Positions 1,789 through 27,362 of a stretch of 34,899 bases of DNA are shown piece after piece. Each line of letters opens with the position of its first letter. Position 1 is the first letter of the stretch. The translations under genes were made by a program, and so were the position numbers. The notes under the pieces were generated by a model that had not been told where the DNA came from, searched no databases, and worked only from the letters and a program-made list of their open reading frames with translations. The stretch lies in assembly GCA_013792135.1 (NCBI GenBank), contig VMSP01000180.1, positions 1 through 34,899 of the forward strand. Direction: 5' to 3'. This DNA is from Desulfocapsa sp. (GTDB lineage: Bacteria; Desulfobacterota; Desulfobulbia; Desulfobulbales; Desulfocapsaceae).

Positions 1789-3930
1789 TCAATTTTGTTG
1801 ACGCCCAAATTCCATACAGGTCACATTTTTTCCAAATCCCAGAACCAGAATTTTTTCCCGGGATGGAATCTCAGATGACTCCATAAGATGCACAGCCATC
1901 ACGGCGGCGACCGCAGAGGCTGAGGCAAATTCTCCAGTAAATTCCCGGTAATGGATGACAGGGATGGTGAGTCCTGATTTCTCCAGGAAGCTGTCCAGCT
2001 GGGCCTGCCCTTCTTTCGCTTCAGCAGCCGGGATGCCGGCCAGGATCATTCTGCAACTCCTTTGCAGGGTCTCTTTGCCGCCCGATGCTGTAATCAGTTC
2101 ATCCATAACCGTAGTGGTCTTTTTGCGAAAAAAGGTAAGCTGCAGCGAGAGTTTTCCCGGCATGGCCTGGCGGCAGAGAGACAAGCAGCCTCCTCCGTCG
2201 GTAAGGGGGGTGGCAGGCTCGATGGAGGGGTCCAAAAGTGACGAAAACTGGATGTGGGCTTCATCAGCGGCCAGGACAAAGGCGGAATTTGATCTGTCAT
2301 CCCTGTCCAGGAAAGTGTCTGCAGCAAGCAGGGCCTGTTCAAAAGAATAATCGCCACCGCTGCTGGTGATATTGGCCCCTGTTGCCTCGTGCATAATGGC
2401 TATCTGTCCTGCCGCACTGTTGTGTACTGAGCCGACAAAGTCAATGGGGCTGGGAAACTGTTCCTGGCTCTGTTGCAGTTTGTCCAGAAAATCATAGGTC
2501 TCGGAGAGGGATCCCCAGCCACTTCCCATAAAGACGCAATGCGGAGAATGGTCAAGGCCGGAATCCTTGCGGGCAGCATCAGCCAGGGCCAGGGCGATTC
2601 TGGAAAAGCGCTTGAGTCTTCGTACCTTCCGCACCGGAAGTTGCGCTGAAATAGTCTCCAGATCAACGGCCCCGGCCATTGTCTCCCCTTGGGAGAACCT
2701 TTCCATGCTTTGTTGCGTGTGTCCTGCTCCAGTGATACATGCCTTCCCAAGGAGAGTCAGGGATGTGCTTTGGACGACAGGTTCAGGAGAAGAAAAGAGG
2801 TCAGGCTGAGCAATGACAAGACAAGCGTTATTGCCGCCAAAGCCAAAGGAGTTGGAGAGTACCGTTGAGATGGGCAGGTCGACAGGCTGCAGGATTGGCG
2901 TCAACCGGCATTCGGGGTCAGGTTGCCGACATCCGGTGTTGGCCGGTACAAGCCCTTTTTGCAGGCAGATTGCGGCAATCGCTGCCTCTATCGCCCCTGA
3001 TGCGGCCAGCCCGTGTCCTGTTGCCCCCTTGATTGATGAAAGTGGAGGCGGCTGTGGGAAAATTGAGCGTACTGCTTTGGATTCAGCACGATCATTCTCT
3101 ATAGTACCGGTGCCATGCAGGTTGATATAGTCGATAGCCTCTGCCTTGAGAGCTGTATTGTCTAAGGCCTTCTGCATGGCTCTGGAAGCGCCTTTCCCCT
3201 CTGGATGGGGCGATGCCGGGTGGTAGGCATCGCAGCTCAGGCCGCAGCCCAGGATCTGGCCCAGTGGTTTTTGGGGTTTCGTGGTGCTGAGTAACAGCAT
3301 GGCAGCACCTTCAGCAACCGACATGCCTTGCCGGTTTTTGTCAAAGGGTCTGCTGCCCTGAGGGTCAACAAGCTGCAGGGAATGAAAGCCGAAATAGGTT
3401 AAGTGGCAAAGGGAGTCGACGCCTCCGGCAAGAATCCATTCCGCCTTGCCGGATTGCAGCATTTTCAGGGCCATGCTGAGGGCAACGGTACCGGAAGAAC
3501 AGGCCGTAGATACCGTGAGTGCCTGTCCGCTGCATTGTACTTCCCTGGCAACCTCTTCCGCAACCGTGGTCAGTCCGTGGTATCTATAGTTATGAGCGTC
3601 CTGATCCTGAGATGCAAGCAGCTCTTCTGTGGTGAGAATTCCGCCGGTGGTAGATCCAATGATTACCGCGTCAGGCGGGTGGGTGCAGCCTTCCATGGCT
3701 TGTCTGGCGGCGGTAATGGCCAGACGATGTGTTCGCGGGAATGTTAAATCCGGGAGGTTCAGTACCTGCCCGACAGGCAGGGGAGGAGGCTGCTGAATGG
3801 CAAAAACATGTAAGGGAGCAATGGCTGATTCGTTCTTTCTGAGAGCCTGCTCAGTGGCATCAATCCCATAGCCCAATGGGCTGATGATGCCAATACCAAC
3901 GATATAGACGTTTCTTTTTTTGCTGCTCAA
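1789..3930 (-). CDS. Beta-ketoacyl-ACP synthase fused to a chain-length-factor-like domain
   Basis: A 713-residue protein with two thiolase-fold halves. Residues 1-375 are a FabF-type ketosynthase with Cys144 (TACSSG), His272 (HGTGT), Lys301 and His306 (GHGLAASG), so it should catalyse decarboxylative condensation. Residues 392-713 resemble the ketoacyl-synt_2 family: SVHNSAAGQ is present near 501, but the catalytic Cys position reads TSSGGD (522-527), so this half is probably inactive and sets chain length. In aryl-polyene and type II polyketide systems these two roles are separate subunits; here they are fused. The gene starts with TTG five bases after the ACP stop and has no clear Shine-Dalgarno, so translation is probably coupled. 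It is too long to be a housekeeping FabF. Confidence 0.85.
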   Translation of the reverse strand: MSSKKRNVYIVGIGIISPLGYGIDATEQALRKNESAIAPLHVFAIQQPPPLPVGQVLNLPDLTFPRTHRLAITAARQAMEGCTHPPDAVIIGSTTGGILTTEELLASQDQDAHNYRYHGLTTVAEEVAREVQCSGQALTVSTACSSGTVALSMALKMLQSGKAEWILAGGVDSLCHLTYFGFHSLQLVDPQGSRPFDKNRQGMSVAEGAAMLLLSTTKPQKPLGQILGCGLSCDAYHPASPHPEGKGASRAMQKALDNTALKAEAIDYINLHGTGTIENDRAESKAVRSIFPQPPPLSSIKGATGHGLAASGAIEAAIAAICLQKGLVPANTGCRQPDPECRLTPILQPVDLPISTVLSNSFGFGGNNACLVIAQPDLFSSPEPVVQSTSLTLLGKACITGAGHTQQSMERFSQGETMAGAVDLETISAQLPVRKVRRLKRFSRIALALADAARKDSGLDHSPHCVFMGSGWGSLSETYDFLDKLQQSQEQFPSPIDFVGSVHNSAAGQIAIMHEATGANITSSGGDYSFEQALLAADTFLDRDDRSNSAFVLAADEAHIQFSSLLDPSIEPATPLTDGGGCLSLCRQAMPGKLSLQLTFFRKKTTTVMDELITASGGKETLQRSCRMILAGIPAAEAKEGQAQLDSFLEKSGLTIPVIHYREFTGEFASASAVAAVMAVHLMESSEIPSREKILVLGFGKNVTCMEFGRQQN

Positions 3931-3935
3931 GGAGA

Positions 3936-4193
3936 TTATTTGGGTGAGTTTTTACGGATATAATCGGCGAGTGAGGAAAGGGTGGAAAAAACCTTTTCGG
4001 CGATTTCTTTGTTGTTGATAATCACGCCGTAATCTTTTTCAACCATGACCACAATTTCCAGCACATCAATGGAGTCGATACCCAGCTCCCCGCCTACCAG
4101 CTGAGCATTCTCGTCAAACTCTTCCGGAGTAACATCTGTCAGGTTGAGGATTTCAATAAGTCTTTTTTTAAGTTCTTCTGTTAAGTTATCCAT
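3936..4193 (-). CDS. Acyl carrier protein (first of three)
   Basis: An 85-residue acidic protein of typical ACP length. The phosphopantetheine site is Ser41 in GIDSIDVLEI. It sits five bases before the KS-CLF fusion and forms a two-gene minus-strand unit with it, so it most likely carries the growing chain for that synthase. It is one of three ACPs in the locus. Their different sequences suggest separate jobs such as extension, starter loading or head-group condensation, but which does what cannot be read here. The start ATG at 4193 faces a 354-base gap, which holds a palindromic repeat and should contain the divergent promoters. Confidence 0.9.
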   Translation of the reverse strand: MDNLTEELKKRLIEILNLTDVTPEEFDENAQLVGGELGIDSIDVLEIVVMVEKDYGVIINNKEIAEKVFSTLSSLADYIRKNSPK

Positions 4194-4370
4194 AGCTGTA
4201 TTTATGTTATATTTATTACCTTATCGGCTGCTGCGAAGAGCGTCGGGAAAATGGATTGCCTCTGTCTCATAACGAATTGGAAAGATGAACAGTTCTTTTC
4301 AGTAATCAAGAGTATATATGAAAAGAAAAAAAATAACGACTGGAAATATCTCTCCTCTGAGCCTTTTGCC

Positions 4371-4535: not shown

Positions 4536-4547
4536 AAAAAGAGAGAC

Positions 4548-4817
4548 ATGCGGCATGAAATAGCAGGAAATTGCCCTTCATATTATGGTAATAAGAGTTT
4601 TGGAAAACTCACCATAAATAAAGAGGGTAATATGGGATTTACCCACAGTGCGAAGGTGTTACCACTGATTTTTCTGGTCGAAGGCAATGGCTCTCCAGAA
4701 TTACAGGATAGTGGCACGCCTGTCGATATTATGGTAATCATTCCTGCTGAAATGGGTGGGCCGGAGGCAGCCCGGAATCTTCTTCATCAAATAGAGAAAC
4801 TTTTTCAAAAGTCATGA
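4548..4817 (+). CDS. Small protein of unknown function at the head of the operon
   Basis: Up to 89 residues, not recognised. Two starts are possible. ATG 4548 follows a GAGAGA run. ATG 4632 follows AGAGGG with a 4-base spacer and gives 61 residues; this second start has the better ribosome-binding site. The shorter form has a hydrophobic strand-like segment (VLPLIFLVEG), then VDIMVIIPAEM, then an amphipathic C-terminal helix ending in LFQKS, which looks like a small soluble alpha/beta protein. Its TGA overlaps the next ATG (ATGA), so it is translated with the dehydratase gene. That coupling is the main reason to believe it is real. Function is unknown. Confidence 0.55.
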   Translation: MRHEIAGNCPSYYGNKSFGKLTINKEGNMGFTHSAKVLPLIFLVEGNGSPELQDSGTPVDIMVIIPAEMGGPEAARNLLHQIEKLFQKS

Positions 4818-5248
4818 CAACAGCAGACCTTTCCGGTATTACCCTTGATGATCTGATCCCGCATCGTGACAGTATGATGTTGATTGATGATATTATTGAA
4901 GTGGACTCTCATTATGCCCTCACCTCTTCCGTGATCAGCGCGTCTTACCCCCTGGTCGATGAAAACGGAGTGCATCCGTTGATCATGGTGGAACTGGCAG
5001 CTCAGACTGCCGGGGTATGTAATGGTCTTGACCGCATTAAAACCAAAGGGATTGATTCTCTTAAGATGGGCTGGTTAGTGGGTGTGAAACGGGCACAGTT
5101 TTATATTGAGCATATTCCTCTGGGCAGTACGGTTTTCACCCGTTCTGAGAACAGTCATAACTATGAAAATCTGCGGGAAGTTTCCTGTGTGGTACATCTG
5201 GATAAGAGACTTATAGGGGAAGTGACATTACAACTTTTTCAGGCGTAA
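4814..5248 (+). CDS. Hotdog-fold 3-hydroxyacyl-ACP dehydratase
   Basis: A 144-residue single-hotdog protein. LIPHRDSMMLIDDI (about 15-28) holds the FabZ/FabA-type His17, and HPLIMVELAAQTAGV (about 54-68) holds the catalytic acid Glu60 at the start of the hot-dog helix. It should dehydrate 3-hydroxyacyl-ACP to trans-2-enoyl-ACP. The sequence is closer in style to the COG4706/ApeP-like dehydratases of aryl-polyene loci than to housekeeping FabZ. No enoyl reductase is seen in the window, so double bonds made here could be retained, giving a polyene. The gene starts at the ATGA overlap with the upstream small gene and is followed 9 bases later by the ketoreductase. Confidence 0.85.
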   Translation: MTTADLSGITLDDLIPHRDSMMLIDDIIEVDSHYALTSSVISASYPLVDENGVHPLIMVELAAQTAGVCNGLDRIKTKGIDSLKMGWLVGVKRAQFYIEHIPLGSTVFTRSENSHNYENLREVSCVVHLDKRLIGEVTLQLFQA

Positions 5249-5257: not shown

Positions 5258-5995
5258 ATGAAAGAAGCAAGTAACCAAAAAGTGGCTATCATTACTGGTG
5301 CAGCCAAGGGAATCGGCAGGGCCATTGCCGTAGAACTCGCGCAGGCCGGGTATTATACGGTGATCAATTACTTGTCTGATCAGGCTGGGGCGGAACAGAC
5401 CCTGGCTATGGTGGAAGAGGCTGGAAGTTGCGGCGAGGTCTATCCTTTTGATATCCGGGATGGCCGGAAGGCGGAAGAGGTGATTGAGGACATTGCGCAG
5501 CGGTTGGGCAGGATTGATGTCCTGGTCAATAATGCCGGAATCATCCATGACGGTCTGTTCATGATGATGGAACCCGCGAGCTGGCACTCCGTGATTGATA
5601 CCAGTCTCACCGGCTTTTATAATATGACCCGGCCGGTCATCGAAAAAATGGTGCGCAGCCGCAGCGGGGTGGTGATCTCCCTGTCGTCGGCTTCGGCCCT
5701 CATGCCCAATCGCGGTCAGGCAAATTATTCGGCGGCCAAGGCCGGACTAACCGCGGCCAGCCGGGTGGTTGCCTCGGAAGTGGCCCGCCTGGGTATCCGA
5801 GTCAACGTGGTGGCCCCGGGCCTTATTGAGACCGATATGATTAAGGATGCCCCCAAGGAGCATATCAAAAATATGATCCCCATGGCCCGGATCGGCAGAC
5901 CTGATGAGGTGGCAAAAGTTGTGGCCTTCCTCTGTTCCGACGATGCTTCTTATGTGACTGGACAGGTTCTCTCGGTCAATGGCGGGATGTGTTAG
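5258..5995 (+). CDS. 3-ketoacyl-ACP reductase (FabG-like SDR)
   Basis: A 245-residue classical short-chain dehydrogenase/reductase. It has the Rossmann motif TGAAKGIG (13-20), NNAG (91-94), catalytic Ser144, and Tyr157/Lys161 in YSAAK. The C-terminal [11 protein letters not shown] is typical of FabG. It should reduce 3-ketoacyl-ACP to 3-hydroxyacyl-ACP with NADPH. Together with the dehydratase directly upstream and the KS genes it completes the reductive half-cycle that leaves an alkene at each round. The gene lies in the main operon; the next start codon is two bases after its TAG. Confidence 0.9.
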
Positions 5996-5997
5996 CC

Positions 5998-6597
5998 ATG
6001 CGCTCCTTGATAGTAGTACTTTTCCTGGCAGCAGGGCTTGGCTTTTTGTCTCCGGCCCAGGCGCAGGATGTTGCCGGTCAGTCTCCTGTGCGCGTGGACT
6101 CTGTGCAGGCGGAATTTACTCAGGAAAAACATCTGCCCATCCTCGTTCGTCCTATTATCTCTAAAGGCACCTTTGTGTTTCAGGCCCCTGCATCCTTGCG
6201 CTGGGAGTATCTCTCGCCCGTACACTCCGTTCTGCTTATGGATGATGGCCGCCCCCGTAAATTCATAGAGCGTAATGACCAATTTGTAGAAGAACAGGGA
6301 ATGGGCATGGATTCCATGGCGATTGTCCTCCAGGAGATCACCGGATGGCTTGATGGGCATATCAGCGACACCCCCACCTTTAAGGCCAAGGTCCAGGAGG
6401 GGGGGCTCATCGTGCTCACCCCGAAAGAAGCGGCGCTGGCCAGGATCATCAGCCGTATTGAATTAAGGCTGGCAGGCCGATCCGGTCTGATGGAATCGGT
6501 AACGCTCTATGAAGGGCCGGATTCCTTGACCAGACTGATTTTTTCCCATGGTGTCTTGAATGAGAAGATTCCGCCAGCAACATTTATGAAACCATGA
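5998..6597 (+). CDS. LolA-like outer-membrane lipoprotein carrier protein
   Basis: About 199 residues. I place the start at ATG 5998, because the residues before it (from GTG 5989) are hydrophilic and the ATG begins a clean signal peptide (MRSLIVVLFLAAGLGFLSPA, cleavage probably after AQA). The mature part has LolA features: QAEFTQEKHL, then GTFVFQAPASLRWEY, then FIERNDQFVEEQ. LolA carries lipoproteins, and in aryl-polyene loci LolA-like proteins are thought to ferry the lipidic product through the periplasm. Here it follows the ketoreductase by two bases and precedes a lipoprotein gene, so a dedicated carrier for the locus product is more likely than housekeeping LolA. Confidence 0.82.
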   Translation: MRSLIVVLFLAAGLGFLSPAQAQDVAGQSPVRVDSVQAEFTQEKHLPILVRPIISKGTFVFQAPASLRWEYLSPVHSVLLMDDGRPRKFIERNDQFVEEQGMGMDSMAIVLQEITGWLDGHISDTPTFKAKVQEGGLIVLTPKEAALARIISRIELRLAGRSGLMESVTLYEGPDSLTRLIFSHGVLNEKIPPATFMKP

Positions 6598-6610: not shown

Positions 6611-6729
6611 AAATAAGGATTTTCGTTCAAGATCAAGGCATGCGAAAAATTTTACCGCAGGCATATACTAATATTCTGAGGATAAAATTTTGAGCATAAT
6701 GCAGAGATTGGGCGAAAAGACCATTTTGC
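6611..6729. repeat. 120-bp interspersed palindromic repeat, copy B, entering a gene
   Basis: Same element and orientation as 4371-4490, with 13 differences including one gap. Its right part contains GAGGA (6678-6682) and TTG 6690, then codes for the first 13 or so residues of the following lipoprotein. The repeat therefore appears to provide ribosome-binding site, start codon and N-terminus. In copy A the same frame runs only about 25 codons before a stop. Confidence 0.75.
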
Positions 6730-7412
6730 GAGGAACCCTGAAGTCTGTTTTAGCCTTTGTGTTCCTGCTGTTGCTGGCGGCCTGCTCAGCTCTGCAGCCC
6801 GTGCATCTGCCGGATCTGACTGCTCTGGATGCAGTCGATGACAGTCAGGCTGGGCAACTCCTGCAGAGATGCAGAAATAATTTTGTCACTGGAAACTGGC
6901 AGTTTGTTCATTCCATTGCCTTCAAGAGGGCTGATGGGGGCGGGGCCACGGTAATCGGGGTTACCGTTCTTGACGGACAAAAACTTCATTGCGCTCTCAT
7001 GACAGTGGAGGGCCTTGTCCTCTTTGAGGCAGAACTTGCTCAGGAGAAACTTACAGTGAGCCGGGCTCTGCCGCCTTTTGATAAGCCGGAATTTGCCAGA
7101 GGCTTGATCCGTGATGTGCAGGCTATCTTTCTGCCCCCGGCAGCAGAGGAGCCGAAGACAGGAAGGCTTGTCGGCGGTGAGCTTGTCTGCCGATATCAGG
7201 CGGACAACGGTCAGATAACAGACCTTCTTGTTGATGATGACGGCAGCCGGATGAATATCTATGATCCCGATTTGAACCGAAGCCGAAGCATCGTTGCCGG
7301 ATCACCCATCTCTGTGGCTGCCGAGAGAGTACCTGAAACGCTGGAGTTAACCGCCTCCGGTTTGAGCGCTTATACCTTAACTATGACACTGATCAGTGCT
7401 GATAAAATATGA
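6690..7412 (+). CDS. Lipoprotein, DUF3261-like
   Basis: Up to 240 residues with a lipobox LLAAC at Cys32, preceded by a hydrophobic stretch (VLAFVFLLLL). Two starts are possible: TTG 6690, with GAGGA seven bases upstream, or ATG 6699; both lie inside repeat B. After lipidation the protein would be anchored in the inner or outer membrane facing the periplasm. The body resembles the DUF3261 lipoproteins found in aryl-polyene clusters (the ALPPFDKPEFARGL segment near 125-140), but I am not certain of that assignment. Its position right after LolA suggests the two act together in moving or anchoring the product. The stop overlaps the next ATG (ATGA). Confidence 0.65.
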   Translation: MSIMQRLGEKTILRGTLKSVLAFVFLLLLAACSALQPVHLPDLTALDAVDDSQAGQLLQRCRNNFVTGNWQFVHSIAFKRADGGGATVIGVTVLDGQKLHCALMTVEGLVLFEAELAQEKLTVSRALPPFDKPEFARGLIRDVQAIFLPPAAEEPKTGRLVGGELVCRYQADNGQITDLLVDDDGSRMNIYDPDLNRSRSIVAGSPISVAAERVPETLELTASGLSAYTLTMTLISADKI

Positions 7413-8674
7413 AATTTAAACTCATCTATCCCAAGTGGGCCAAGCTGGACCGGCAGACCGAGTTTCATCTGCCGCCGCATGGGCCGGTTGTCTTTGCCGC
7501 CACCTTGCCCGAATACGTCGACGTCGATTTTGTTGATGAAAATCTGGAGACCATTGATTTTGACGATCCGGTCGATATGGTCGGGATCTCCATGATGCTG
7601 ACCGTGCAGGTGAAGCGCGGCTGGGAGATTGCTGATCTCTACCGGCAGAAAGGGGTCAAGGTCATCTTCGGCGGCATTGCCACCATGCTCCATGCCGAGG
7701 AAACCATGGAACATGCCGATTCTGTCTTTCTTGGCGAGGCCGAGGGTCGGATGGAACAGGTCCTGGCCGATTTCAGGCAGGGCAAACTCAAACCCTGTTA
7801 CGATTTTATGGACGAGCGGCCGGATATAGCCCTGGTCGGCCCGGCCCGCCGGGATCTCCTCAATCGCAAGCTCTACAACTACAAGGGCGTGCAGATGGTG
7901 GATCTGGTCCATGCTTCCCGCGGCTGTAGATTTAACTGCTACCCCTGTGCCGTCTCCTATCTCGGCGGGCGCGTCTTCCGGCCCCGGCCCATTGACAAGG
8001 CAGTGGCCGAGATGGCCGGCATCGACAACAACCGCCTCTTCATCGTCGACAACTCCCTGGCCCAGAATACCCAGTGGGAGATGGAGCTGTTCCGGGAGAT
8101 GATCCCCCTGAAAAAGAAATGGTGCTCCCATCCCATTGAAGACAAGCCCGAGGTCCTTGATCTCGCGGCCCAGGCCGGGGCCTGGTATGTCTACCAGGCG
8201 GTCTTTGACACCTCGGACTATATCAAGGAGCGGATCAAGCGCTATCACGACCACGGTATCGGCGTCGAGGGCACGATCCTCCTCGGGCTCGACAATCACG
8301 ATGAAGACTTCATCAAGCGGCTGATCGACTTCCTTCTCGAGATCGAGCTTGATCTGGCCGAATTCACGGTCCTGACCCCCTTCCCCCACACCAAGGCCTG
8401 GAAGGAGCTGAACCAGCAGAACCGCATCCTCTCCCAGGATTGGAACGACTACTCAGCGGACAAGGTGGTTTTTCAGCCCAAACAGATGAGTCCGGGCAAA
8501 CTGCAGGAACTGCTCGATTATGCCTGGAACACCTTCTACCACGATGAATCGCAGAAGATGAAGATGGCGAAACTGTTCCAGCAGGTGGTGAAAAAAGAGA
8601 TGGCCGACGACACCTTCAAGCCCCGGGACAGAAGCCTGGCCGATCAGTCTTTTGGCCGGGATGCGAGCAGATAG
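7409..8674 (+). CDS. Radical SAM protein with N-terminal B12-binding-like domain (no DxHxxG)
   Basis: A 421-residue protein. Residues 1-130 look like the Rossmann-type cobalamin-binding domain of class B radical SAM enzymes (VGISMMLTVQ, VIFGGIATMLH, FLGEAEG), but I see no DxHxxG motif, so cobalamin, if bound, would be base-off without that His. The [4Fe-4S] site is Cys173, Cys177 and Cys180 (CxxxCxxC). The architecture resembles HpnJ/BchE-type enzymes acting on lipids and hydrophobic cofactors. The N-terminus lacks a signal peptide, so it is cytoplasmic. It is coupled by ATGA to the lipoprotein gene. Substrate unknown; tailoring of the acyl chain is inferred from context. Confidence 0.8.
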   Translation: MKFKLIYPKWAKLDRQTEFHLPPHGPVVFAATLPEYVDVDFVDENLETIDFDDPVDMVGISMMLTVQVKRGWEIADLYRQKGVKVIFGGIATMLHAEETMEHADSVFLGEAEGRMEQVLADFRQGKLKPCYDFMDERPDIALVGPARRDLLNRKLYNYKGVQMVDLVHASRGCRFNCYPCAVSYLGGRVFRPRPIDKAVAEMAGIDNNRLFIVDNSLAQNTQWEMELFREMIPLKKKWCSHPIEDKPEVLDLAAQAGAWYVYQAVFDTSDYIKERIKRYHDHGIGVEGTILLGLDNHDEDFIKRLIDFLLEIELDLAEFTVLTPFPHTKAWKELNQQNRILSQDWNDYSADKVVFQPKQMSPGKLQELLDYAWNTFYHDESQKMKMAKLFQQVVKKEMADDTFKPRDRSLADQSFGRDASR

Positions 8675-15885: not shown

Positions 15886-15934
15886 TCTTCCGCAGAGTTG
15901 TTGGGGAGGGCGTGTTGTCGATTTTGTTGTGACC

Positions 15935-19423: not shown

Positions 19424-20917
19424 ATGGCCTCTCACTCATCTTTTCCCAGAGATGTTCTGATAATAGGCTCCGGTGTCGGTGGCCTCAGTACTGCAATTAT
19501 TCTTGCTAAACTGGGCTTTGAGGTGACCGTCCTGGAGAAGAATGGTCAAGCGGGTGGCGTGATGCGCAGCTACACTCGAGACGGAATTGAGTGTCCCGTT
19601 GGGGTGCATTATCTTGGCTCCCTTGACCAGGGGCAGATCCTGCGTAAATTTTTTGATTATTTAGGGGTTAGCGCCACGATTCCAGTAGCGCGCATGGGTG
19701 AAAATGGCATAATCGACCGCTATCTTTTCGATGGTGCCGGCGACCATCCGTATCCGGCATGTTTTGACCTGCCGCCAAGTATGGACGCCTTTGCAGAAAA
19801 GCTCAAACAGACCTTTCCCGACGAACGAGAAAAAATCAGCAAAATAGTCGCTCCGATCCGCAAAGCAGCAGACCAGCTGCATGCACTGGACTTATTATAT
19901 GCAACGGCAAACGATTTTTCACTCCTGGATCAGTCCCAGCCCCTGGGAGAGATTTTAGACGATCTGCACTGTTCGCCTGGCTTGCGAAGTGTCCTGGCCA
20001 TCCCCGCATGCTGGATCGGCGTGCCCTTGAATGACTGCCCGGCCTATTATCACAATATGGCTCTAGCTTCCTATGTCGCTTCTTCGTATCGTTTACAGGG
20101 GAGTGGGGCGGAGATGGCTGATGCTTTGGTGGGGCGTCTGCAGGAACTGGGGGGCAAAATTGTGACCGGGGCCGAGATCAGTAAAATCCATGTCAGTTCG
20201 CGGGTGGTGACCGGCCTGCAACTCAAATCCGGAGAGAGCTTGACCGCCTCCACAGTTATCGGAGCTGTGCACCCGAAAGTTGTTTTACAAATGCTTCCGG
20301 AAGGAGCCGTGAAACCCTCCTACCGGCAACGGATCAGTGGACTGGAAGATACTCACGGTATCTTCTCAGTTCATGCCAGCCTCGATGGTGCCAGCCATCC
20401 TGAAATTCCTTACAATATCTTTAAGATAGACAGGGATCACGATGGAAATGTCCGGGATCTCAAGTATTACCAGATCCGGAAAAGTGAAAGGGAGGGTGTC
20501 AGCCTCCTGTCAATTCTCACATCCGGCAAGGATGAGTTGTGGGCGTTCGCGGAGAATACCAAAAGCGGTCGCCGGGGCAATGACTATCTCGAAGCAAAGG
20601 AGCAGCATGCAGAGCAGTTGATTCGAGAGGCGGAAGAGCTGTTCGGCTCCTTTAAGGGTTTGAAGGTTCTTGATGCCTACACACCTCTGACCATGCGTGA
20701 CTGGGTCAATAGCCCGGGCGGGAGTGCCTACGGTGTGTTGCGTTCTTCCAGCCAGACACTGTCCACGGCTCTGTTGAACCGAACGTCTGTGCAAGGATTG
20801 TATCTTGCCGGCCAGAACGTAATGGCCCCAGGAGTGATTGGTACCATTATGGGTTCTTTCAGTACCGTAAAATTGATCCTGGGGGCAGATGAGTTTGGCA
20901 AGGTGGTCCGTTTATGA
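19424..20917 (+). CDS. CrtI/CrtISO-like FAD-dependent oxidoreductase (phytoene desaturase family)
   Basis: A 497-residue flavoprotein. The N-terminal dinucleotide-binding motif GSGVGGLSTAI runs on to VTVLEK, and GQAGGVMRSY is the typical second block. The C-terminal GLYLAGQNVMAPGVIGTIMG is the FAD-binding end shared with carotenoid desaturases, isomerases and retinol saturase. Such enzymes desaturate, isomerise or saturate conjugated polyenes. No phytoene synthase or other carotenoid gene is in the window, so the substrate is probably the acyl polyene made here. The same combination with radical SAM enzymes and KS genes has been proposed for ladderane loci. Confidence 0.85.
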   Translation: MASHSSFPRDVLIIGSGVGGLSTAIILAKLGFEVTVLEKNGQAGGVMRSYTRDGIECPVGVHYLGSLDQGQILRKFFDYLGVSATIPVARMGENGIIDRYLFDGAGDHPYPACFDLPPSMDAFAEKLKQTFPDEREKISKIVAPIRKAADQLHALDLLYATANDFSLLDQSQPLGEILDDLHCSPGLRSVLAIPACWIGVPLNDCPAYYHNMALASYVASSYRLQGSGAEMADALVGRLQELGGKIVTGAEISKIHVSSRVVTGLQLKSGESLTASTVIGAVHPKVVLQMLPEGAVKPSYRQRISGLEDTHGIFSVHASLDGASHPEIPYNIFKIDRDHDGNVRDLKYYQIRKSEREGVSLLSILTSGKDELWAFAENTKSGRRGNDYLEAKEQHAEQLIREAEELFGSFKGLKVLDAYTPLTMRDWVNSPGGSAYGVLRSSSQTLSTALLNRTSVQGLYLAGQNVMAPGVIGTIMGSFSTVKLILGADEFGKVVRL

Positions 20918-20927
20918 GGAGTTGTCT

Positions 20928-21476
20928 TTGATACGGATTATTCTCTTTATCCTCGGTACCGTTTTTTTTGTTCGTATCTCCCGGCGGGCGTTGGCTAATC
21001 CAGGGACACATGGTTTTTATAGGTTTTTTGTTTTTGAAGGGCTCTTGTCCTTGATTTTATTGAACTACCCCTATTGGTTCAGAGACCCGTTTTCACCGCT
21101 CCATCTTTTCAGCTGGTTTCTTTTGCTCGTCTCGATTCTTTTTGTGATCCAGTCGGTCCTGATGCTTAAACAGCGGGGCGGTCATGCCCAACGCGCGGAA
21201 ATGCCGGCAAATTACTCTTTTGAAAATACCGTCCATGTGGTGGAAGAAGGCCTGTATCGCTATATTCGTCACCCGATGTACAGTTCGCTGCTCTTTCTGG
21301 GATGGGGGGCGTTTTTGAAACATGTCACGCCGGTAAACATAGGACTGATTGTGGTGGTGAGTGTCTTTCTTATCGTTGTGGCCAAGGTCGAGGAATGTGA
21401 GAATGTCAGGTTCTTTGGTGCGGCATATGTGGATTACAGGCAACGGACAAAGATGTTTATTCCGTGGGTCTTTTAA
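20928..21476 (+). CDS. ICMT/PEMT-like membrane methyltransferase
   Basis: About 182 residues with four hydrophobic segments. The C-terminal half carries the family signature: YRYIRHPMYSS, then KVEECENVRFFGAAYVDYRQRTKMFIP. I choose TTG 20928 as start because TGAGGAG (20915-20921) lies six bases upstream; the in-frame ATG 20889 would overlap the oxidoreductase by 29 bases and add a hydrophilic leader. The family methylates isoprenylcysteine carboxylates, phospholipid amines or other membrane-embedded acceptors using SAM. Here it is the last gene of the plus-strand operon and may methylate a head group. It converges with the third ACP gene, 18 bases away. Confidence 0.78.
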   Translation: MIRIILFILGTVFFVRISRRALANPGTHGFYRFFVFEGLLSLILLNYPYWFRDPFSPLHLFSWFLLLVSILFVIQSVLMLKQRGGHAQRAEMPANYSFENTVHVVEEGLYRYIRHPMYSSLLFLGWGAFLKHVTPVNIGLIVVVSVFLIVVAKVEECENVRFFGAAYVDYRQRTKMFIPWVF

Positions 21477-21494
21477 TCTGCAAACTTTCCCGTC

Positions 21495-21764
21495 CTATTC
21501 TGGTTGGATAAAGTCTGCCAGGGCATTAATGCTTTTCAGGTGTCGGCGGAAGGCCTTGCTGTCGGGCAGGTATATCCCGAACTGGCTTTTCAGGCCCACG
21601 GAGATCTGCAGTGCATCCAGTGAATCAAGTCCAAGTCCGCTTGCATCGGAGAAAATCTGTATGTCGTCATCCACCTCTTCCGGGGTGATGTCCGCAATAT
21701 CACATTCTTCGATGATCATTACTTTCAGTCGTTGTTTCAACGCCTGGTCTAAAGAACCCTTCAT
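21495..21764 (-). CDS. Acyl carrier protein (third of three)
   Basis: An 89-residue ACP with the attachment serine at Ser48 (GLGLDSLDALQ). It is the last gene of the minus-strand DarA/DarB operon and its ATG overlaps the stop of the ABC permease gene (ATGA read on the minus strand). It is more diverged than the other two ACPs. Its operon position suggests it carries a chain for the KAS III or BtrH-like transfer step; dialkylresorcinol loci of Pseudomonas also contain a dedicated ACP beside darA and darB. Confidence 0.88.
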   Translation of the reverse strand: MKGSLDQALKQRLKVMIIEECDIADITPEEVDDDIQIFSDASGLGLDSLDALQISVGLKSQFGIYLPDSKAFRRHLKSINALADFIQPE

Positions 21765-22957
21765 ATTCCCCTTTTCATTTTTGCATTGAGTATCATTCCG
21801 GCAGCAAGCAGTAATCCTGCACCGAATCCTGCCAATGTTAGAGATTCTGTAATAACCGCTCCAGCTCCTTGGCCGCGCAGAAAGATATCAAGGAAGCCTT
21901 CAAGCCCCCAGGACATCGGGGAGATGTTGGTAAGTTGCTGCATGGACTGAGACATATAAAATTTTGGCACCATAACACCGCCAATCGCTCCCATCAAAAT
22001 ATTGATAATCCCGCCGATTGTTGTCGCCTGCTCCACCGTGTCTGCTGTTACCGCGATCAGGATTGAAGTTCCTATGGCGGCCAGACTTAACCCGAGGGAA
22101 ACCATAAACAGGCCACTGATCGAATCGCCGAGGGTTAAAGCGTCCGCGCCGAACAGTGGCACCAGGAAGATCCCTACCCCGATCATCAGCCAGACCTGAA
22201 TCTGGTTAATAATGATATAGGGTGCTAGTTTGCCCGCAAAGAGGACGGGAACAGATATATTCATCGCACTCATGCGCATCAAGGTGTTCTGCTTGTGCTC
22301 ACTGATAAAGACCGTCGACATCGGAATGATGACGAAGAACATCCCGAAAACAATCCACGACGGCACGCTTTGCTGGGTGGAGGTCGGCTTTTTATTTATT
22401 CCCATGGCATTGAAGCGTACCTGTATCAGGTTGTCCCTATTGCTTTTCATTGCCTCGAGCTTTTGTGCCACCTCCGGCAAAAAAGGAGCGAGCTCCTCTT
22501 GGATCTTTTCCATACGCATTCGGATGATGTCTATCACTAATTCCGCCTGCACAAGCGTCAGCATCTCCTGTTTTACATCGGAAGCAACATCGAGTTGCAG
22601 CAGTGAAGCAGACTGCTCTGTGTCAAGATTTTGGGCAAATCCTGGTGGAATGGATACGATGAAATGCAGCTTCCCGTTCAGGGCCTCTTGTCGCTGGGCT
22701 GTATTGGTGATGGGCGCCTTATGTTCTTTCAGTCTCCCGTTGGAAAGTAAAAAGGTTCGCAGCTTAGCACTTTCCGCGGTGTTGTCCTGATCGATAACGG
22801 CATAGCTTAACAATGCACGGTCACTGCCAAAGGTATCTTTGAGGGCTATCGACATGATCAGAATAAAAATGGAAGGCATAATGAAAAGTGCGGCCAGCGC
22901 ATACTTATCACGCAAGAGAAGAATAAACTCTTTGAGCAGCATTGCTTTAAACATCAC
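21761..22957 (-). CDS. ABC-2 type transporter permease
   Basis: A 398-residue membrane protein with the ABC-2 (YhiD/DrrB-like, membrane_3) layout: one N-terminal helix (ALAALFIMPSIFILIMSI), a periplasmic domain of about 150 residues, then five C-terminal helices starting near WIVFGMFFVIIPMSTVFI. The gene overlaps the ATPase by 11 bases. This type exports hydrophobic or lipid-linked substrates. With the ATPase it probably moves the locus product, or its head-group-linked form, across the inner membrane, upstream of the LolA-like carrier. The substrate is inferred only from context. Confidence 0.85.
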   Translation of the reverse strand: MMFKAMLLKEFILLLRDKYALAALFIMPSIFILIMSIALKDTFGSDRALLSYAVIDQDNTAESAKLRTFLLSNGRLKEHKAPITNTAQRQEALNGKLHFIVSIPPGFAQNLDTEQSASLLQLDVASDVKQEMLTLVQAELVIDIIRMRMEKIQEELAPFLPEVAQKLEAMKSNRDNLIQVRFNAMGINKKPTSTQQSVPSWIVFGMFFVIIPMSTVFISEHKQNTLMRMSAMNISVPVLFAGKLAPYIIINQIQVWLMIGVGIFLVPLFGADALTLGDSISGLFMVSLGLSLAAIGTSILIAVTADTVEQATTIGGIINILMGAIGGVMVPKFYMSQSMQQLTNISPMSWGLEGFLDIFLRGQGAGAVITESLTLAGFGAGLLLAAGMILNAKMKRGI

Positions 22958-23870
22958 AGTTTCCTTGCGTGGTCAACTGGATAAAGAGGGCCTCGAGATT
23001 CGTGGTCCCATAGCGGATCTGCTTTACATCTATTTGTTCTGCTTCCAGAGCAGCAAGGATCGCTCCCAGTTGGGTGGCATCCGGCCCGTCTATCATCAGT
23101 GTTGCCGCATCGATCACCTTCACCAGTGCATATTTCCGGGCAAGGGTCTGCAGTTGTGCTTCGTACGAGTGGCGTAGTTCGATGACCACAGAGTCGGCTT
23201 TCTCTTCATGCAGCATCGCCTCAAGGAGACCATGACGAATAATACGGCCTCGGTCGAGGATGGCCACTTCATCACAGATCTTTTCGATTTCCGGCATATA
23301 GTGCGAGGTATAAATGACGGTCTTGCCATCGTTTTTAAATGAACGAATCGTTTCCAGAATATTCGTACGTGATTCGGGGTCGATCCCTGCTGTCGGTTCG
23401 TCAAAATAGAGGAGTTCAGGGTTATTGAGCATCCCGATGGCAATATTCAATCGACGTTTCTGGCCTCCGGAAAGAATGCCGGCCTTGTGATCAAGCAACG
23501 AATGCAGCCGGTTGACGGAAAGCGCATATTCGACATTGTGGCGCAGCTCTTTGCCCCGGATCTTTTGAATCCCGGCAAAAAAACGTAAATTTTCAAGAAC
23601 GGTAAGATTATCGTAGAGGGCCAGAGACTGGGGGGTAAAAGAGCTACGCTTGCGGATGGCTTTCAGCTCTTGAGAGAGCGGTAGCCCGAAAATTTCGATC
23701 TCACCTTCTTGGAAATCAATCAAGCCGTTGAGAATCGATACCAGCGTTGTCTTTCCTGCGCCATTGGGTCCAAGCAGGCCTAAGATAACGCCTTTCCCGA
23801 CGTTCAGATCTATGTGATCAAGGGCAATATGATTATTGTAATGCTTGACGAGGTTTTTGATGGAGATCAT
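22947..23870 (-). CDS. ABC transporter ATP-binding protein
   Basis: A 307-residue ATPase with Walker A GPNGAGKTT (34-42), signature LSGGQKRRLNIA (133-144), Walker B LLYFDEPTAG (153-162) and H-loop His190. The C-terminal 90 residues after the nucleotide-binding domain are typical of CcmA/DrrA-like exporters. It starts three bases after the BtrH-like gene stop and overlaps the permease gene, so the three are co-translated. It pairs with the ABC-2 permease as a homodimeric ATPase. Confidence 0.92.
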   Translation of the reverse strand: MISIKNLVKHYNNHIALDHIDLNVGKGVILGLLGPNGAGKTTLVSILNGLIDFQEGEIEIFGLPLSQELKAIRKRSSFTPQSLALYDNLTVLENLRFFAGIQKIRGKELRHNVEYALSVNRLHSLLDHKAGILSGGQKRRLNIAIGMLNNPELLYFDEPTAGIDPESRTNILETIRSFKNDGKTVIYTSHYMPEIEKICDEVAILDRGRIIRHGLLEAMLHEEKADSVVIELRHSYEAQLQTLARKYALVKVIDAATLMIDGPDATQLGAILAALEAEQIDVKQIRYGTTNLEALFIQLTTQGNCDV

Positions 23871-23873: not shown

Positions 23874-24881
23874 TTAGACCAGATTGCCTTCCAACAGCTT
23901 CCTGTAGACGGCAGCTTCGGCATCGGCGACGCTTTCAAGTTTTGCCTTCAGGGTGGAAAAATCAGTGGTCTGGCTTTCTTTGCTGCGAATCGCCTTGGCC
24001 AGCATCAGGGCGAATTCGCGCCACTGATCCCCGACCAGGGTCATCATCTCCGAGCTCTCGCCCAGTAGAGGATTTTCGAGCAGTTTGCCGGCCTCCTGCA
24101 AGAATGACGCGTAGATAAAACGAAAACCTGCTCCCCCGGTTCCAATCTCTTCCTGCATGCGGACAATGTGCCCTAAAAAGAGTTTCGCATAGCGGCGGTC
24201 CTTCTGCTCCAGTTTGCCGATGGCTTTTGCTAAATATCTGATGCCACGGATACCTGCGATCGGCACCGGGGTCTTCAGCATGGCCTTGGCATTCTTCTTG
24301 ATAGCTTTGGGGAGTACGACCGCGTAATTAATCGTCTCAGGAACATGAACCGGATAGTAAAGTAAGCCCTTGGGCGCCATCACCCCTTTGACGAAACGTG
24401 CCTTTTGCAGGGCTTGCGTCTCACAGCGCACCGGCGTTTCAAAAACCGGGTCACTGATGAGATATTCGTCGCCCTCTTTCTTGTAGATGATCAGGTTGTG
24501 GGCATTAAAATGGAAGCGCATCTCTTCGGGAAAGTAGGGCAGCCAGAAGACGGAAGTCTGCGCACCGACGATCTTGCCCTGTTCCAGCAGAGAATCAAGG
24601 GCTTTGGTACCCTCTGCGGGATGAGAAAAGGTCTGCATCTTCATCTTGATACCAAGATTTTTCTGCAAACCTTTAATAATAGCTCTCGGTCTGCTGCGAT
24701 AGGCAATCAGCGGCATGCCGCCAAGCTTCACAAAGGGAAGATAGGCAAACATCAGGGCACCCGACAGGCCGAAGACCATCGCTTCTGAGAGCGGCAGGCC
24801 ATAATGGTGCATCATCAGCGACATCACCCCGCTTTCACAATGCGCAGAGTGGGCGTGTTGGAAACTCTGGTCAGGCACCAT
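23874..24881 (-). CDS. BtrH N-terminal-domain protein (possible ACP-dependent acyltransferase)
   Basis: About 335 residues from ATG 24881; the frame is open further upstream but only across the previous gene, and the true N-terminus with His14-Cys15-Glu16 (AHCESG) begins here. This Cys-containing start, followed by LMMHHYGLPLSEAMVFGLSGAL, matches the BtrH N-terminal family, and the second half resembles DUF4872. BtrH transfers an acyl chain from an ACP to an amine in butirosin synthesis. Here an ACP, a KAS III and an ABC exporter share the operon, so transfer of a product chain to an acceptor is a reasonable guess. The gene overlaps the upstream one by 11 bases. Confidence 0.72.
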   Translation of the reverse strand: MVPDQSFQHAHSAHCESGVMSLMMHHYGLPLSEAMVFGLSGALMFAYLPFVKLGGMPLIAYRSRPRAIIKGLQKNLGIKMKMQTFSHPAEGTKALDSLLEQGKIVGAQTSVFWLPYFPEEMRFHFNAHNLIIYKKEGDEYLISDPVFETPVRCETQALQKARFVKGVMAPKGLLYYPVHVPETINYAVVLPKAIKKNAKAMLKTPVPIAGIRGIRYLAKAIGKLEQKDRRYAKLFLGHIVRMQEEIGTGGAGFRFIYASFLQEAGKLLENPLLGESSEMMTLVGDQWREFALMLAKAIRSKESQTTDFSTLKAKLESVADAEAAVYRKLLEGNLV

Positions 24882-25287
24882 TTGCTCTTCTATCCGGCAA
24901 CTCCCGCAGCTCCTGTACACTGATGCCAAGGGTATCCGCATAGCGGGCAAACATCTTTGCGGAAAGTTTGTCAAAGGCCGTGGGGCTGAAATGGCGTTTG
25001 ATGCGCCATTGAAACATTCCCATCGCCTGAGCCAGGGTCTGCAGGTCCATCCGGCGGTTGTACATATGAAAATATAAGGGTGAGGCCTGGCCAGAGAGCG
25101 CTTGATCGTAGGCTTTGATTGCGAGACGTTCGAGTTCTTGAAGCGCCTGCTTTGTGGCCGCTTCTTCAACATCCCAGCCCGATGAGGTTATAATACCATA
25201 CTTGCCGTTTTCATCGGTGGCATAGATTGCTTTCTTGTTGTTGGCGTAGGTGGATATATTATGTTGAGGTACCTTGCTGTTATCCAT
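24871..25287 (-). CDS. Unrecognised 138-residue protein in the dar-like operon
   Basis: Not assigned to a family. The N-terminal third is polar (NISTYANNKKAIYATDENGKYGI). The rest looks helical, with a segment AQAMGMFQWRIKRHF and a C-terminal RYADTLGISVQEL. The last parts look like small helix-turn-helix-style units, but I would not call it a regulator. It lies four bases after the KAS III gene and overlaps the BtrH-like gene by 11 bases, so it is surely expressed with them. Such tight coupling suggests a partner subunit for the BtrH-like or KAS III enzyme. No signal peptide or membrane segment. Confidence 0.7.
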   Translation of the reverse strand: MDNSKVPQHNISTYANNKKAIYATDENGKYGIITSSGWDVEEAATKQALQELERLAIKAYDQALSGQASPLYFHMYNRRMDLQTLAQAMGMFQWRIKRHFSPTAFDKLSAKMFARYADTLGISVQELRELPDRRANGA

Positions 25288-25291
25288 TTAG

Positions 25292-26440
25292 TTATACCAC
25301 CGTCAGATGCATAAAGGCGGTGGAGAAACGTCCGCTCTCGGGAATGTAACAGAGGATTGTCTCGCCTTTTTTCAGACGACCCGAGTTGAAGAGTTCTTCA
25401 AGGATGATATAAATCGAGGCCGAACCGGTGTTGCCTTTTGAGCTCAGATTAGTAAACCACTTTTCCTGGGGTATATCGAATTCTGCCACCTGCATCCCCT
25501 TGTGGACCTTGTCGCGGAAAAAACAGGAAGAGTAGTGCGGCAGGAACCAGCCTATCTCTCTTGGGTCAAGTCTGCCCTGGGTCATAAGCTCCTGTAGGGG
25601 CTTGGTTACTGTGTATTCGATAATCTTGTCGTTGAGCAGCTTGACGTCCTGTTTGATCGCAAATATCGATTGCTCCAGCCATTCCTGCGGCAGGTATTCA
25701 CGCCATCCCTTTAAAGAGCCATCCTCATCTTTTTCCGCTCCGGCATACATACAGGTGTCGAGCTTTCCGGCGTAGGACCGTTGAAAGATCCAGTCGATCC
25801 GCAGAGAGTTCCCTGCATTATTTGGTGTATCGCTCAGCCATACTGCACCGGCACCGTCGCTCAACATCCAGCGCAGAAAATCTTTTTCAAAGGCGATCTC
25901 GGCTGGTTTGGTAAGAAGCTCAGCCTGTGACAGCGTCTCTTCGCTAAAATTGCTGCCGCGCATGATTGCAGAAGCATTTTCCGAACCGGTGGCCACACAA
26001 TTTTTTGTCTGGCCGGCCAGTATTGATAAATAGCCGTATTTCAGGGACATTACCCCCGAAAGACAGATTCCTGCTGTGGCAATGGCTTCACAGGGTGGAA
26101 TGCCAAGCTCGCCGTGTACCATCAGGGCATGATTCGGCATCAGCTGGTCAGGCAGGGTCGTGCCGCAAGCCAGCAGTTCGATACTGTTGATATTACATCC
26201 CTGTTTCCCCAGTTGACGTACTGCTTCGGCAGTCATCTCAGCATTGCTGTGGGTCGTTTTTCCAGTTTCCGGGTCAATGGCATAGTATCTGGATTGTATC
26301 TGGTTGCTGCGCAGAATCAGCTTGCGTGCCCGGGATGGTCGATTGCCAATCTGTCCGAGAACGGATTCCATGGCGTCGTTACCAACGGGCTCATTGGGTA
26401 AAAAAGCTGCAATATGCGTAATGTAAACCTGCCGAGTCAT
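25292..26440 (-). CDS. darB: KAS III-like ketosynthase, DarB-like
   Basis: About 382 residues. I start it at ATG 26440 (GCAGAGA upstream), since the longer frame would add 14 residues overlapping the preceding gene. The KAS III triad is intact: Cys126 (TAGICLSG), His302 (LPHYSS) and Asn337 (KGNTGSAS). Length exceeds FabH (about 320), as is usual for the DarB/OleA-like branch. It is directly downstream of a DarA-like gene, and that pairing is the hallmark of dialkylresorcinol loci, where DarB joins two acyl-derived chains. A role in generic fatty-acid initiation is less likely given length and neighbour. Confidence 0.78.
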   Translation of the reverse strand: MTRQVYITHIAAFLPNEPVGNDAMESVLGQIGNRPSRARKLILRSNQIQSRYYAIDPETGKTTHSNAEMTAEAVRQLGKQGCNINSIELLACGTTLPDQLMPNHALMVHGELGIPPCEAIATAGICLSGVMSLKYGYLSILAGQTKNCVATGSENASAIMRGSNFSEETLSQAELLTKPAEIAFEKDFLRWMLSDGAGAVWLSDTPNNAGNSLRIDWIFQRSYAGKLDTCMYAGAEKDEDGSLKGWREYLPQEWLEQSIFAIKQDVKLLNDKIIEYTVTKPLQELMTQGRLDPREIGWFLPHYSSCFFRDKVHKGMQVAEFDIPQEKWFTNLSSKGNTGSASIYIILEELFNSGRLKKGETILCYIPESGRFSTAFMHLTVV

Positions 26441-26450
26441 TTTTTCTCTG

Positions 26451-27362
26451 CTATCTACCAGAAGGCTCTTCATAAGAGGCAATGGCTCTGTCGATTGCTA
26501 TTTTTTGAAATGGATACATAACTTTACGGATTACTATATTCAATGGGACAATCGTTAGCACTAATGTCAGCAGAAAGATCGCATAGATTGTGATGACTAT
26601 ATTACGGCCGCGTGAATTCGGTGCACCGGCTTTTTTGATCAGCTTGCTCCAGATCAAAAAGCTGCGGTGGGCAATACGTTCGGTGGCAATCAGTTTACCG
26701 TTGACGTTAACGGCACCCATATTGCGCAGCATGGGACTATTATTCCGTTCTTCCCCTTTCTGCAAGGCAGAACACAACTGTTCGCCAAAACGAGATGATG
26801 CGGCAATTTCTTCCTCGGCAACACCGGCTTTTGGAAAGAACCAGAAGGCATCTTTTTTTCCGGTGAGCATCCACCGCGGTGTGGTGACAAAGGTATAGAG
26901 TGATTTTCCCTGATCGGTCAGGGCCACATTGCCCAGCAGGCGGGCCCCAAGATCGGCCAGAAGTCCTTTCATCTTCTCCTGAGCCATCAACCACATATCA
27001 CGACAGGCGATCACCGTTACCACCGGTTTGCCTTTGAAGAGCTTTTTGGCCTGGTCGCTTTGCAAGAATCCGGTCACGGGAATGGAAGGTGAAAGAAACC
27101 AGGAGGTGTAGCCCAAGACGATCAAGTCGTATTCTTCCGCCGTTTCAATCGGTTCTACTTTACAACCGTCAAGATATACTGCCTCGGGAAAAACGTTGAA
27201 AAATGCATAAAAAGACCATGGGTACGGGTATGAAGTTACTGGTTTGATTTCGCAATAATCACACTGCACGTCATCGCACTGTTTCAGTGGTGCGACGATC
27301 TTGTCCATAACCCTTTTCAGTTGTCCGCTTTGCGAATAATAGAGAACTAATACTTTCTTCAT
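26451..27362 (-). CDS. darA: DarA-like dialkylresorcinol-forming protein, flavodoxin fold
   Basis: About 303 residues from ATG 27362, where a flavodoxin-type N-terminus begins (MKKVLVLYYSQSGQL). Further family blocks are YPYPWSFYAFFNVFPEA, LIVLGYTSWFLSPSIPV and VVTVIACRDMWLMAQEKM. The pattern matches proteins annotated as dialkylresorcinol condensing enzyme DarA in Bacteroidetes and Pseudomonas. A hydrophobic segment (IVITIYAIFLLTLVLTIVPL) near the C-terminus suggests membrane association. With DarB it forms the aromatic resorcinol ring from two chains; its exact chemistry is less settled. It lies ten bases before the KAS III gene and is the first gene of the seven-gene minus-strand operon. 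Confidence 0.75.
   Translation of the reverse strand: MKKVLVLYYSQSGQLKRVMDKIVAPLKQCDDVQCDYCEIKPVTSYPYPWSFYAFFNVFPEAVYLDGCKVEPIETAEEYDLIVLGYTSWFLSPSIPVTGFLQSDQAKKLFKGKPVVTVIACRDMWLMAQEKMKGLLADLGARLLGNVALTDQGKSLYTFVTTPRWMLTGKKDAFWFFPKAGVAEEEIAASSRFGEQLCSALQKGEERNNSPMLRNMGAVNVNGKLIATERIAHRSFLIWSKLIKKAGAPNSRGRNIVITIYAIFLLTLVLTIVPLNIVIRKVMYPFQKIAIDRAIASYEEPSGR

Follow-up and report, generated by a model that had tools for sequence, protein, structure and literature searches.

Does a locus in which gene sets of three kinds of lipid pathway stand side by side make one product or several? The case considered here is a contig of 34,899 nucleotides from the anaerobic sulfur-cycle bacterium Desulfocapsa sp. 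(VMSP01000180.1, contig C176 in our numbering; called the window below, at its whole length), part of a genome of 4.20 Mb in 186 contigs, in which some two dozen genes at positions 1789 to 27362 comprise a polyene-type core, three radical S-adenosylmethionine (SAM) enzymes with a CrtI-like flavoprotein, and a block of dialkylresorcinol (DAR) genes. The locus probably makes one unusual outer-membrane lipid, and it is moderately probable, as predicted from the genes, that a single pathway resembling those of flexirubin and arcuflavin, adapted to anaerobic life, accounts for it. Its novelty is that a pathway of the flexirubin/arcuflavin kind is merged with a ladderane-like redox set, and that the merger recurs in relatives. 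Hybrids of polyene and DAR, namely flexirubin and arcuflavin, and ladderane-like clusters of delta-proteobacteria have each already been published on their own; a search of the open-licence PMC literature turned up no DAR block within a ladderane-like cluster of Desulfobacterota.

A previous sequence-only reading had proposed an outer-membrane polyene-derived lipid with a resorcinol or acyl-sugar head, and the gene set indeed fits a polyene-DAR lipid. Every gene class that it named is present in 1789-27362 by Pfam and NCBIfam scans of the window proteins (the third acyl carrier protein by motif and place); its gene list had overlooked a fused fatty-acid kinase FakA-DegV, a PEMT/ICMT-like methyltransferase and DarG. 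The genes are as follows, each model's cut-off standing beside its score.

1789..3930, minus: fused ketosynthase-chain length factor (KS-CLF), 713 aa (family scans; ketosynthase triad in the N-half only)
3936..4193, minus: acyl carrier protein (ACP) 1 (PF00550 38 bits; DSI motif)
4814..5248, plus: hot-dog dehydratase, ApeP/FabZ-like, weak (ApeP-like 17.9 bits, cut-off 27; FabZ 29.8, cut-off 113)
5258..5995, plus: ketoreductase, FabG/FlxB-like (FabG NF004200 285.9 bits, cut-off 273; FlxB 283, under 340)
5989..6597, plus: LolA-like carrier, ApeL-like (PF03548 42.6 bits)
6690..7412, plus: DUF3261 LolB-like lipoprotein, ApeN-like (PF11659 23.7 bits, cut-off 22.3; lipobox by eye)
7409..8674, plus: B12-binding radical SAM enzyme 1 (Pfam/NCBIfam)
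9581..10948, plus: AMP-forming acyl/aryl ligase (PF00501; TIGR02372 115 bits, under 334.7)
10945..12657, plus: fused fatty-acid kinase FakA-DegV (PF02734, PF21645, PF02645; also in relatives' loci)
12513..13355, start likely near 12654, plus: GT2 glycosyltransferase (PF00535 92.5 bits)
13322..14221, plus: LpxL-like acyltransferase (PF03279 50 bits)
14367..14624, plus: ACP 2 (PF00550 34.6 bits)
14638..15885, plus: ketosynthase (KS), FabF-like (family scans; intact triad)
15824..16699, plus: PlsC-like acyltransferase (PF01553 78.9 bits)
16696..18186, plus: B12-binding radical SAM enzyme 2, BchE/HpnJ-like (Pfam/NCBIfam)
18374..19420, plus: radical SAM/SPASM enzyme 3 (Pfam/NCBIfam)
19424..20917, plus: CrtI/CrtD-like flavoprotein (CrtD 105 bits, under 549.7)
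20889..21476, plus: PEMT/ICMT-like membrane methyltransferase (Pfam/NCBIfam; adjoins CrtI or DarA in several relatives)
21495..21764, minus: ACP 3, of the DAR block (DSL motif and place, no family scan; in relatives an ACP-like match adjoins the ABC permease)
21761..22957, minus: ABC-2 permease (PF12698 101 bits)
22947..23870, minus: ABC ATPase (PF00005)
23874..25172, start likely near 24884, minus: DarH, BtrH-related acyltransferase (NF053550 498.8 bits, cut-off 300)
24871..25287, minus: DarG family protein (NF053536 173 bits, cut-off 70)
25292..26482, minus: DarB/StlD-type ketosynthase (NF005293 603 bits, cut-off 450; StlD 5gk0 454 bits)
26451..27362, minus: DarA homologue (place beside DarB; modelled FMN-flavodoxin-like fold and C-terminal hydrophobic helix)

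Polyene-type core and dialkylresorcinol block

By their sequences, the KS-CLF, ketoreductase, dehydratase and ACPs are an iterative type II system, and the gene set looked for as that of aryl polyene (APE) clusters is present: a KS-CLF pair, ketoreductase, ACP, ligase, LolA/DUF3261 and acyltransferases. The ketosynthase C-H-H triad is complete in the KS at 14638..15885 and confined to the N-half of the KS-CLF. An AlphaFold2 model of the latter (13 sequences, pLDDT 87, pTM 0.92) finds its best PDB match in the KS-CLF of the polyunsaturated fatty acid (PUFA) synthase PfaC (6riw, TM 0.81 by query length, 18% identity), followed by the ishigamide KS-CLF (6kxd, 30% identity); by sequence the best ketosynthase match in the PDB is 9s5h, and the best PDB chain for the dehydratase is 6qsr_B (E 2.9e-4). 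The FabG-like ketoreductase aside, the window shows no recognisable enoyl reductase. FakA-DegV is absent from the published polyene gene lists compared; FakA and FakB (DegV) in one chain were also observed in many such lipid loci, including one on a Spirochaetes-titled contig (L175).

The three radical SAM enzymes of the window all carry the CX3CX2C motif, and radical SAM enzyme 1 ranks with the best-conserved proteins of the locus (median 77% identity across eight named loci other than those titled Syntrophaceae or Smithella). The CrtI-like family is only remotely related to carotenoid desaturases of known structure, the best score being 57 bits for a profile of 12 sequences; among the best 80 of 116 named relatives, those of highest identity are metagenome-assembled genomes of Desulfocapsaceae and Desulfobulbaceae, the closest being 'Desulfocapsaceae bacterium STE_14' at 96%. 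CrtI core loci were also seen on two Spirochaetes-titled contigs (L161, L175), which suggests that this core has spread beyond Desulfobacterota.

In the DAR block, DarB is on sequence grounds a condensing enzyme of the StlD/DarB type, accompanied by DarA, DarG and DarH, and its catalytic C-H-N residues are present; DarG falls below a narrower flexirubin DarG model (131 bits under 170). The gene order is that of Azoarcus darI-F-E-D-B-A, minus two small Azoarcus genes between darI and darF. For the DarA homologue no family model exceeded its cut-off. Its homologues in three Streptomyces plasmids share about 30% identity over 94%, and the one examined adjoins a KAS III gene and an ACP. The structural model of DarA (five sequences, pLDDT 70.6) matches flavin mononucleotide (FMN) flavodoxin-fold proteins such as PnpB and WrbA (E 1.8e-8), the TM being only 0.36-0.38 by query length because just the N-terminal part is aligned; similarities between its C-terminal helices and receptors were taken as spurious.

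The open reading frame (ORF) 4548-4817 was rejected as an ACP; it has no Pfam or NCBIfam family and no match in the relatives' loci compared, and is probably not a gene; ORF 8756-9460 has no Pfam or NCBIfam family and no relative among the DarB loci compared. Left of the cluster, at 269-1557, lie two small ORFs, the second with a HPFYDANGRIGR stretch resembling, by eye, a Fic motif.

Linkage of the blocks in relatives

The claim that the blocks belong together is borne out in the order Desulfobulbales, where CrtI and DarB tend to be present in the same genomes and frequently lie close to each other. Two samples were used, one of 297 genomes of the phylum (CrtI threshold E <=1e-60), with CrtI in 13 and DarB in 21, and one of 242 Desulfobulbales genomes (the order being taken from the titles of named relatives), with CrtI in 53 and DarB in 94. 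In the order sample DarB is present in 49/53 CrtI carriers versus 45/189 genomes without CrtI and, with genera read by hand from the genome lists, in 15/16 genera with CrtI versus 21/52 without (Fisher p 1.4e-4). The 53 carriers have DarB on the same contig in 29 cases (21 within 6 kb, 25 within 36 kb) and on another contig in 20; DarB is absent from four. Among the best 80 of the 116 named CrtI loci, with flanks of at most 10 kb and many loci cut by contig ends, KS-CLF or a second KS occurs in 60 and DarB or DarH in 18. The sequence-only reading had called the locus unusual, which holds against characterised clusters and fails within the order. As for blocks lying separately with no co-occurrence, the outcome that it had set against itself, co-occurrence was found, and some relatives do hold the blocks apart (G322, G418, G435, G438).

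The junction between CrtI/ICMT and the DAR block itself recurs in two genomes of the same genus (G374, G479), with 91-97% protein identity for the genes from CrtI to DarA. Both run in the order of the window, from the FakA or ligase end at the contig start through CrtI, ICMT, ACP, ABC-2, DarH, DarG and DarB to DarA, with flanking type II secretion genes thereafter, also as in the window. An assembly chimera was therefore rejected, the junction being repeated in these two genomes and, with a 19.8-kb insertion, in G335. On either side of that insertion the G335 halves align with the window at 93-94% DNA identity, and 255 bp of the window (21437-21691) are matched at both of its edges; the insertion itself (contig C53, ~23.9-43.7 kb; L086, L119) consists of very large ORFs, in which CxxCH motifs were read by eye. 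In three further genomes of the genus (G369, G495, G526) the DAR block does not adjoin CrtI. Downstream of DarA the window also carries a hybrid sensor kinase (28611-31082; 5TM-LYT, PAS and receiver domains), to which G374 and G479 show no match in the stretch from DarA to their secretion genes.

A second module lies on another contig of the same genome, C70. It comprises an ApeI-like dehydratase (36.5 bits, cut-off 28.5), an ACP, two radical SAM proteins under the Pfam cut-off (22.5 and 25.8 versus 29.5), two KS, a YbgC-type thioesterase, a protein like a polyketide synthase (PKS) dehydratase, a GT25 protein, an MMPL exporter-methyltransferase fusion and a polysaccharide deacetylase. In relatives, modules of this type are contiguous with window genes, in near-complete superloci of ~35-42 kb. 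That of G369 (same genus, ~42 kb) unites a DarA-type DAR block, module 2, the ladderane-named radical SAM family TIGR04072, and KS-CLF through CrtI, with no match for MMPL, deacetylase or ICMT. That of G392 (~38 kb) has full module 2, CrtI, TIGR04072 and KS-CLF through radical SAM enzyme 3, then DAR genes (DarB with a radical SAM partner, ABC, DarH, DarG), with no DarA and no clear radical SAM enzyme 2. In the one-contig genome G396 (at least 35 kb), module 2, TIGR04072 and KS-CLF through radical SAM enzyme 3 are followed by a radical SAM partner, DarB, ACP and ABC. The count of radical SAM proteins is six in the G369 superlocus and seven in that of G396. Since the arrangement recurs in relatives, it is more than chance; and since the DAR block of the window stands at the opposite end of the core from that of G369, its attachment at either end in a single genus speaks for a functional connection.

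DarA is not the only partner of DarB. Among 44 distinct DarB loci (46 matches minus two duplicates, part of the 94 DarB-carrying genomes of the order), the gene within 250 bp of DarB is DarA in 17, the window included, and a B12-binding radical SAM protein in 26 (for example L155:11802-13106); no locus has both, and the remaining one (G046) ends at a contig edge. This partner is HpnR-like (172 bits, under 650) and BchE-like (113 bits, under 481). One branch of the DarB tree divides the two partner types (support 100/96), and CrtI lies within 30 kb of DarB on both sides of this deep split, in 9/17 loci of the DarA type and 14/26 of the radical SAM type. The product of DarB is reported as 4-carboxy-2,5-dialkylcyclohexane-1,3-dione (PMC5515871), and DarA is listed as a DAR-aromatase (PMC3949708). 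Ring aromatisation may thus fall to the radical SAM partner, or the partner may alter the ring; its alternation with DarA poses a sharp enzymological question.

Proposed pathway and rival explanations

In the proposed pathway, the type II system would build a polyene (polyunsaturated) acyl chain, probably without an aryl starter, which the CrtI-like and radical SAM enzymes could then methylate, rearrange, desaturate or cyclise. DarB would condense two acyl chains into a carboxy-cyclohexanedione, DarA, with its predicted flavodoxin fold, would aromatise this to a dialkylresorcinol, and DarH would couple chain and ring. PlsC, LpxL, GT2 and FakA-DegV may serve anchoring and acid recycling, and the ABC-2 transporter, the LolA/LolB-like proteins and the MMPL exporter of C70 may move the lipid to the outer membrane; the MMPL exporter, thioesterase, ApeI-like dehydratase and polysaccharide deacetylase of C70 are functions listed for APE or flexirubin clusters.

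The word 'aryl' in the earlier label of the core lost its support. Neither an aromatic ammonia-lyase (PF00221) nor an FkbO/Hyg5-type chorismatase (TIGR04444) was found in the genome of the window, the only one searched for the chorismatase. PF00221 lyases occur in 28/242 genomes of the order and in 8/53 CrtI carriers (G346, G401, G447, G450, G467, G473, G491, G493), and a chorismate lyase exceeds its cut-off in one genome of the 242, that of the window. As 44/53 CrtI carriers have neither ammonia-lyase nor chorismate lyase, the starter is more likely non-aromatic, or supplied by an unrecognised route. The single chorismate lyase lies on contig C32 (L101, L102; ~5.2-23 kb), in a separate type II PKS cluster with several KS; Pfam identifies a KS and the chorismate lyase there, and a FabZ-like protein, a ketoreductase, an ACP and an AMP ligase were read by eye. 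It is likely a 4-hydroxybenzoate-primed aryl polyene cluster; it was set aside as a part of the window pathway, having its own ketoreductase, ligase, ACP and KS, and may share intermediates with it.

Several observations weigh against a single pathway. DarB missed the strict DarB model NF053539 (513.8 bits under 550). In the phylum sample the genome of the window and five more carry both CrtI and DarB, and each of those five has the two genes on separate contigs; the 20 order genomes with the two genes on different contigs point the same way (assemblies with such separation have 5 to ~520 contigs each), as do four same-contig carriers with the blocks 1.6 Mb (G322) or 134-165 kb (G418, G435, G438) apart. 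The G396 superlocus gave no CrtI match, G141, G168 and G216 have DAR genes without CrtI at the threshold used, and the Syntrophaceae- and Smithella-titled CrtI loci carry DAR genes in 1/23 cases, within flanks of at most 10 kb. Of the 15 genera counted as having both, one (g210) has CrtI and DarB in different genomes, and the co-occurrence tests remove the effects of shared ancestry only partly. Much of this would suit two independent lipids made by neighbouring operons, a polyene or polyunsaturated membrane lipid made by the KS-CLF, CrtI-like and radical SAM genes and a free dialkylresorcinol released through the ABC-2 pump, their proximity reflecting shared precursor supply or a hot spot of lipid genes. 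Each block is found without the other, an ACP and an ABC exporter belong to the DAR block itself, and this block sits at different core ends in the window and G369; the modularity fits two joinable halves of a conjugate and also two separate products. Strong co-occurrence at the level of the order, close linkage on both DarB clades and a DarH belonging to the acyltransferase family named for DAR clusters make two lipids a rather unlikely outcome.

Two further explanations start from the chain. Desulfotalea psychrophila belongs to the same bacterial order as the source organism. Its cluster is syntenic with that of Kuenenia, similar clusters occur in Geobacter and Pelobacter, and it yields C31:8 and C31:9 hydrocarbons with no ladderanes detected, according to Rattray 2009. 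The window could likewise encode an anaerobic pathway to PUFA or polyunsaturated hydrocarbons of the kind proposed for D. psychrophila, with DarB condensation incidental; the closeness of the fused KS-CLF fold to PfaC and the 44/53 carriers with no tyrosine ammonia-lyase or chorismate-lyase starter route agree with this. It is nonetheless quite improbable, given that LolA, DUF3261, GT2, LpxL, PlsC and MMPL form the export and anchoring set of APE clusters and that DAR genes score over cut-off. A true ladderane locus, whose CrtI-like and radical SAM enzymes would turn the chain into fused cyclobutane rings, is highly improbable. The enzyme mix does resemble, by description, the Kuenenia candidate set, as the sequence-only reading had noted, and TIGR04072, a curated ladderane radical SAM family, is over cut-off in 94/242 genomes of the order. 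It is found in 42/53 CrtI carriers (41 over cut-off, one at 358 bits; at most 35 kb from CrtI in 20) and, over cut-off, in 69/94 DarB genomes versus 25/148 others (at most 40 kb apart in 21/94). The B12-binding radical SAM enzymes of the window, however, reach only 45 and 104 bits against its cut-off of 360, and no member was found in the genome of the window, G335, G374, G479 or G526 (E 1e-40). The ladderane likeness drawn by the sequence-only reading thus has support only in part, and membership of the ladderane class is not claimed, since this sole curated marker tested is absent from the genome itself. Expression of Kuenenia candidate genes in E. coli led to no ladderanes that could be detected, perhaps because soluble protein was lacking; ladderane biosynthesis is described as having no proven enzyme, and anammox bacteria as unavailable in pure culture. 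As a separate observation, six genomes (G341, G346, G447, G454, G467, G471) have an aromatic ammonia-lyase gene (PF00221) whose start is 1.5-2.6 kb away from a TIGR04072 gene of high score, and in G385 the distance is 4.5 kb, hinting that this marker is able to serve aryl-primed polyene clusters.

The single polyene-resorcinol pathway remains the preferred explanation. A wider and unlikely, if tentatively entertained, extension of it is that pathways of the flexirubin and ladderane types form a single family, with the Desulfobulbales superloci as the link between its branches. In these superloci the polyene would be remodelled by six or seven radical SAM enzymes, in most cases together with a CrtI-like one, possibly by oxygen-free cyclisation, and attached to the DarB ring, a B12-radical-SAM enzyme replacing DarA in sister loci for oxygen-independent aromatisation or methylation. 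If sulfate reducers normally use the ladderane-like set within a polyene-resorcinol pathway, cultivable bacteria would offer a way to test its radical SAM and CrtI-like enzymes, and automatic 'ladderane' labels in Desulfobacterota (such as those reported for the Cariaco Basin) would need rethinking.

Comparison with known systems

The closest likeness is to the flexirubin clusters of Chitinophaga and Flavobacterium and the arcuflavin cluster of Azoarcus BH72, which have in common with the present genes a polyene type II PKS, DarA/DarB, a BtrH-like protein, ABC transport, LolA, PlsC, a glycosyltransferase, an exporter and a polysaccharide deacetylase, the latter two being on C70. The genome of the window differs from them in having no aromatic ammonia-lyase or FkbO/Hyg5-type chorismatase, and the window differs, with respect to the published gene lists compared, in its three radical SAM enzymes, CrtI-like protein and FakA-DegV, and in the fusion of the KS-CLF. 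By annotated function, the E. coli apeA-R cluster finds ApeC/O, R, Q, E/F, H, D, J, L and N in the window and I, K and M on C70; in comparison with APE clusters, the aryl starter is unsupported, and extra redox enzymes and a DAR block are present. The ladderane-like type II fatty acid synthesis clusters of Kuenenia and D. psychrophila share, by published description, multiple KS and ACP, radical SAM enzymes, phytoene-desaturase-like enzymes, a ligase and a glycosyltransferase; the window differs from them in its lack of TIGR04072 and in the DAR block attached to it. The KS-CLF, finally, shares fold and architecture with those of PfaC and ishigamide biosynthesis, at 18% and 30% identity, and is here a stand-alone fused protein of 713 aa.

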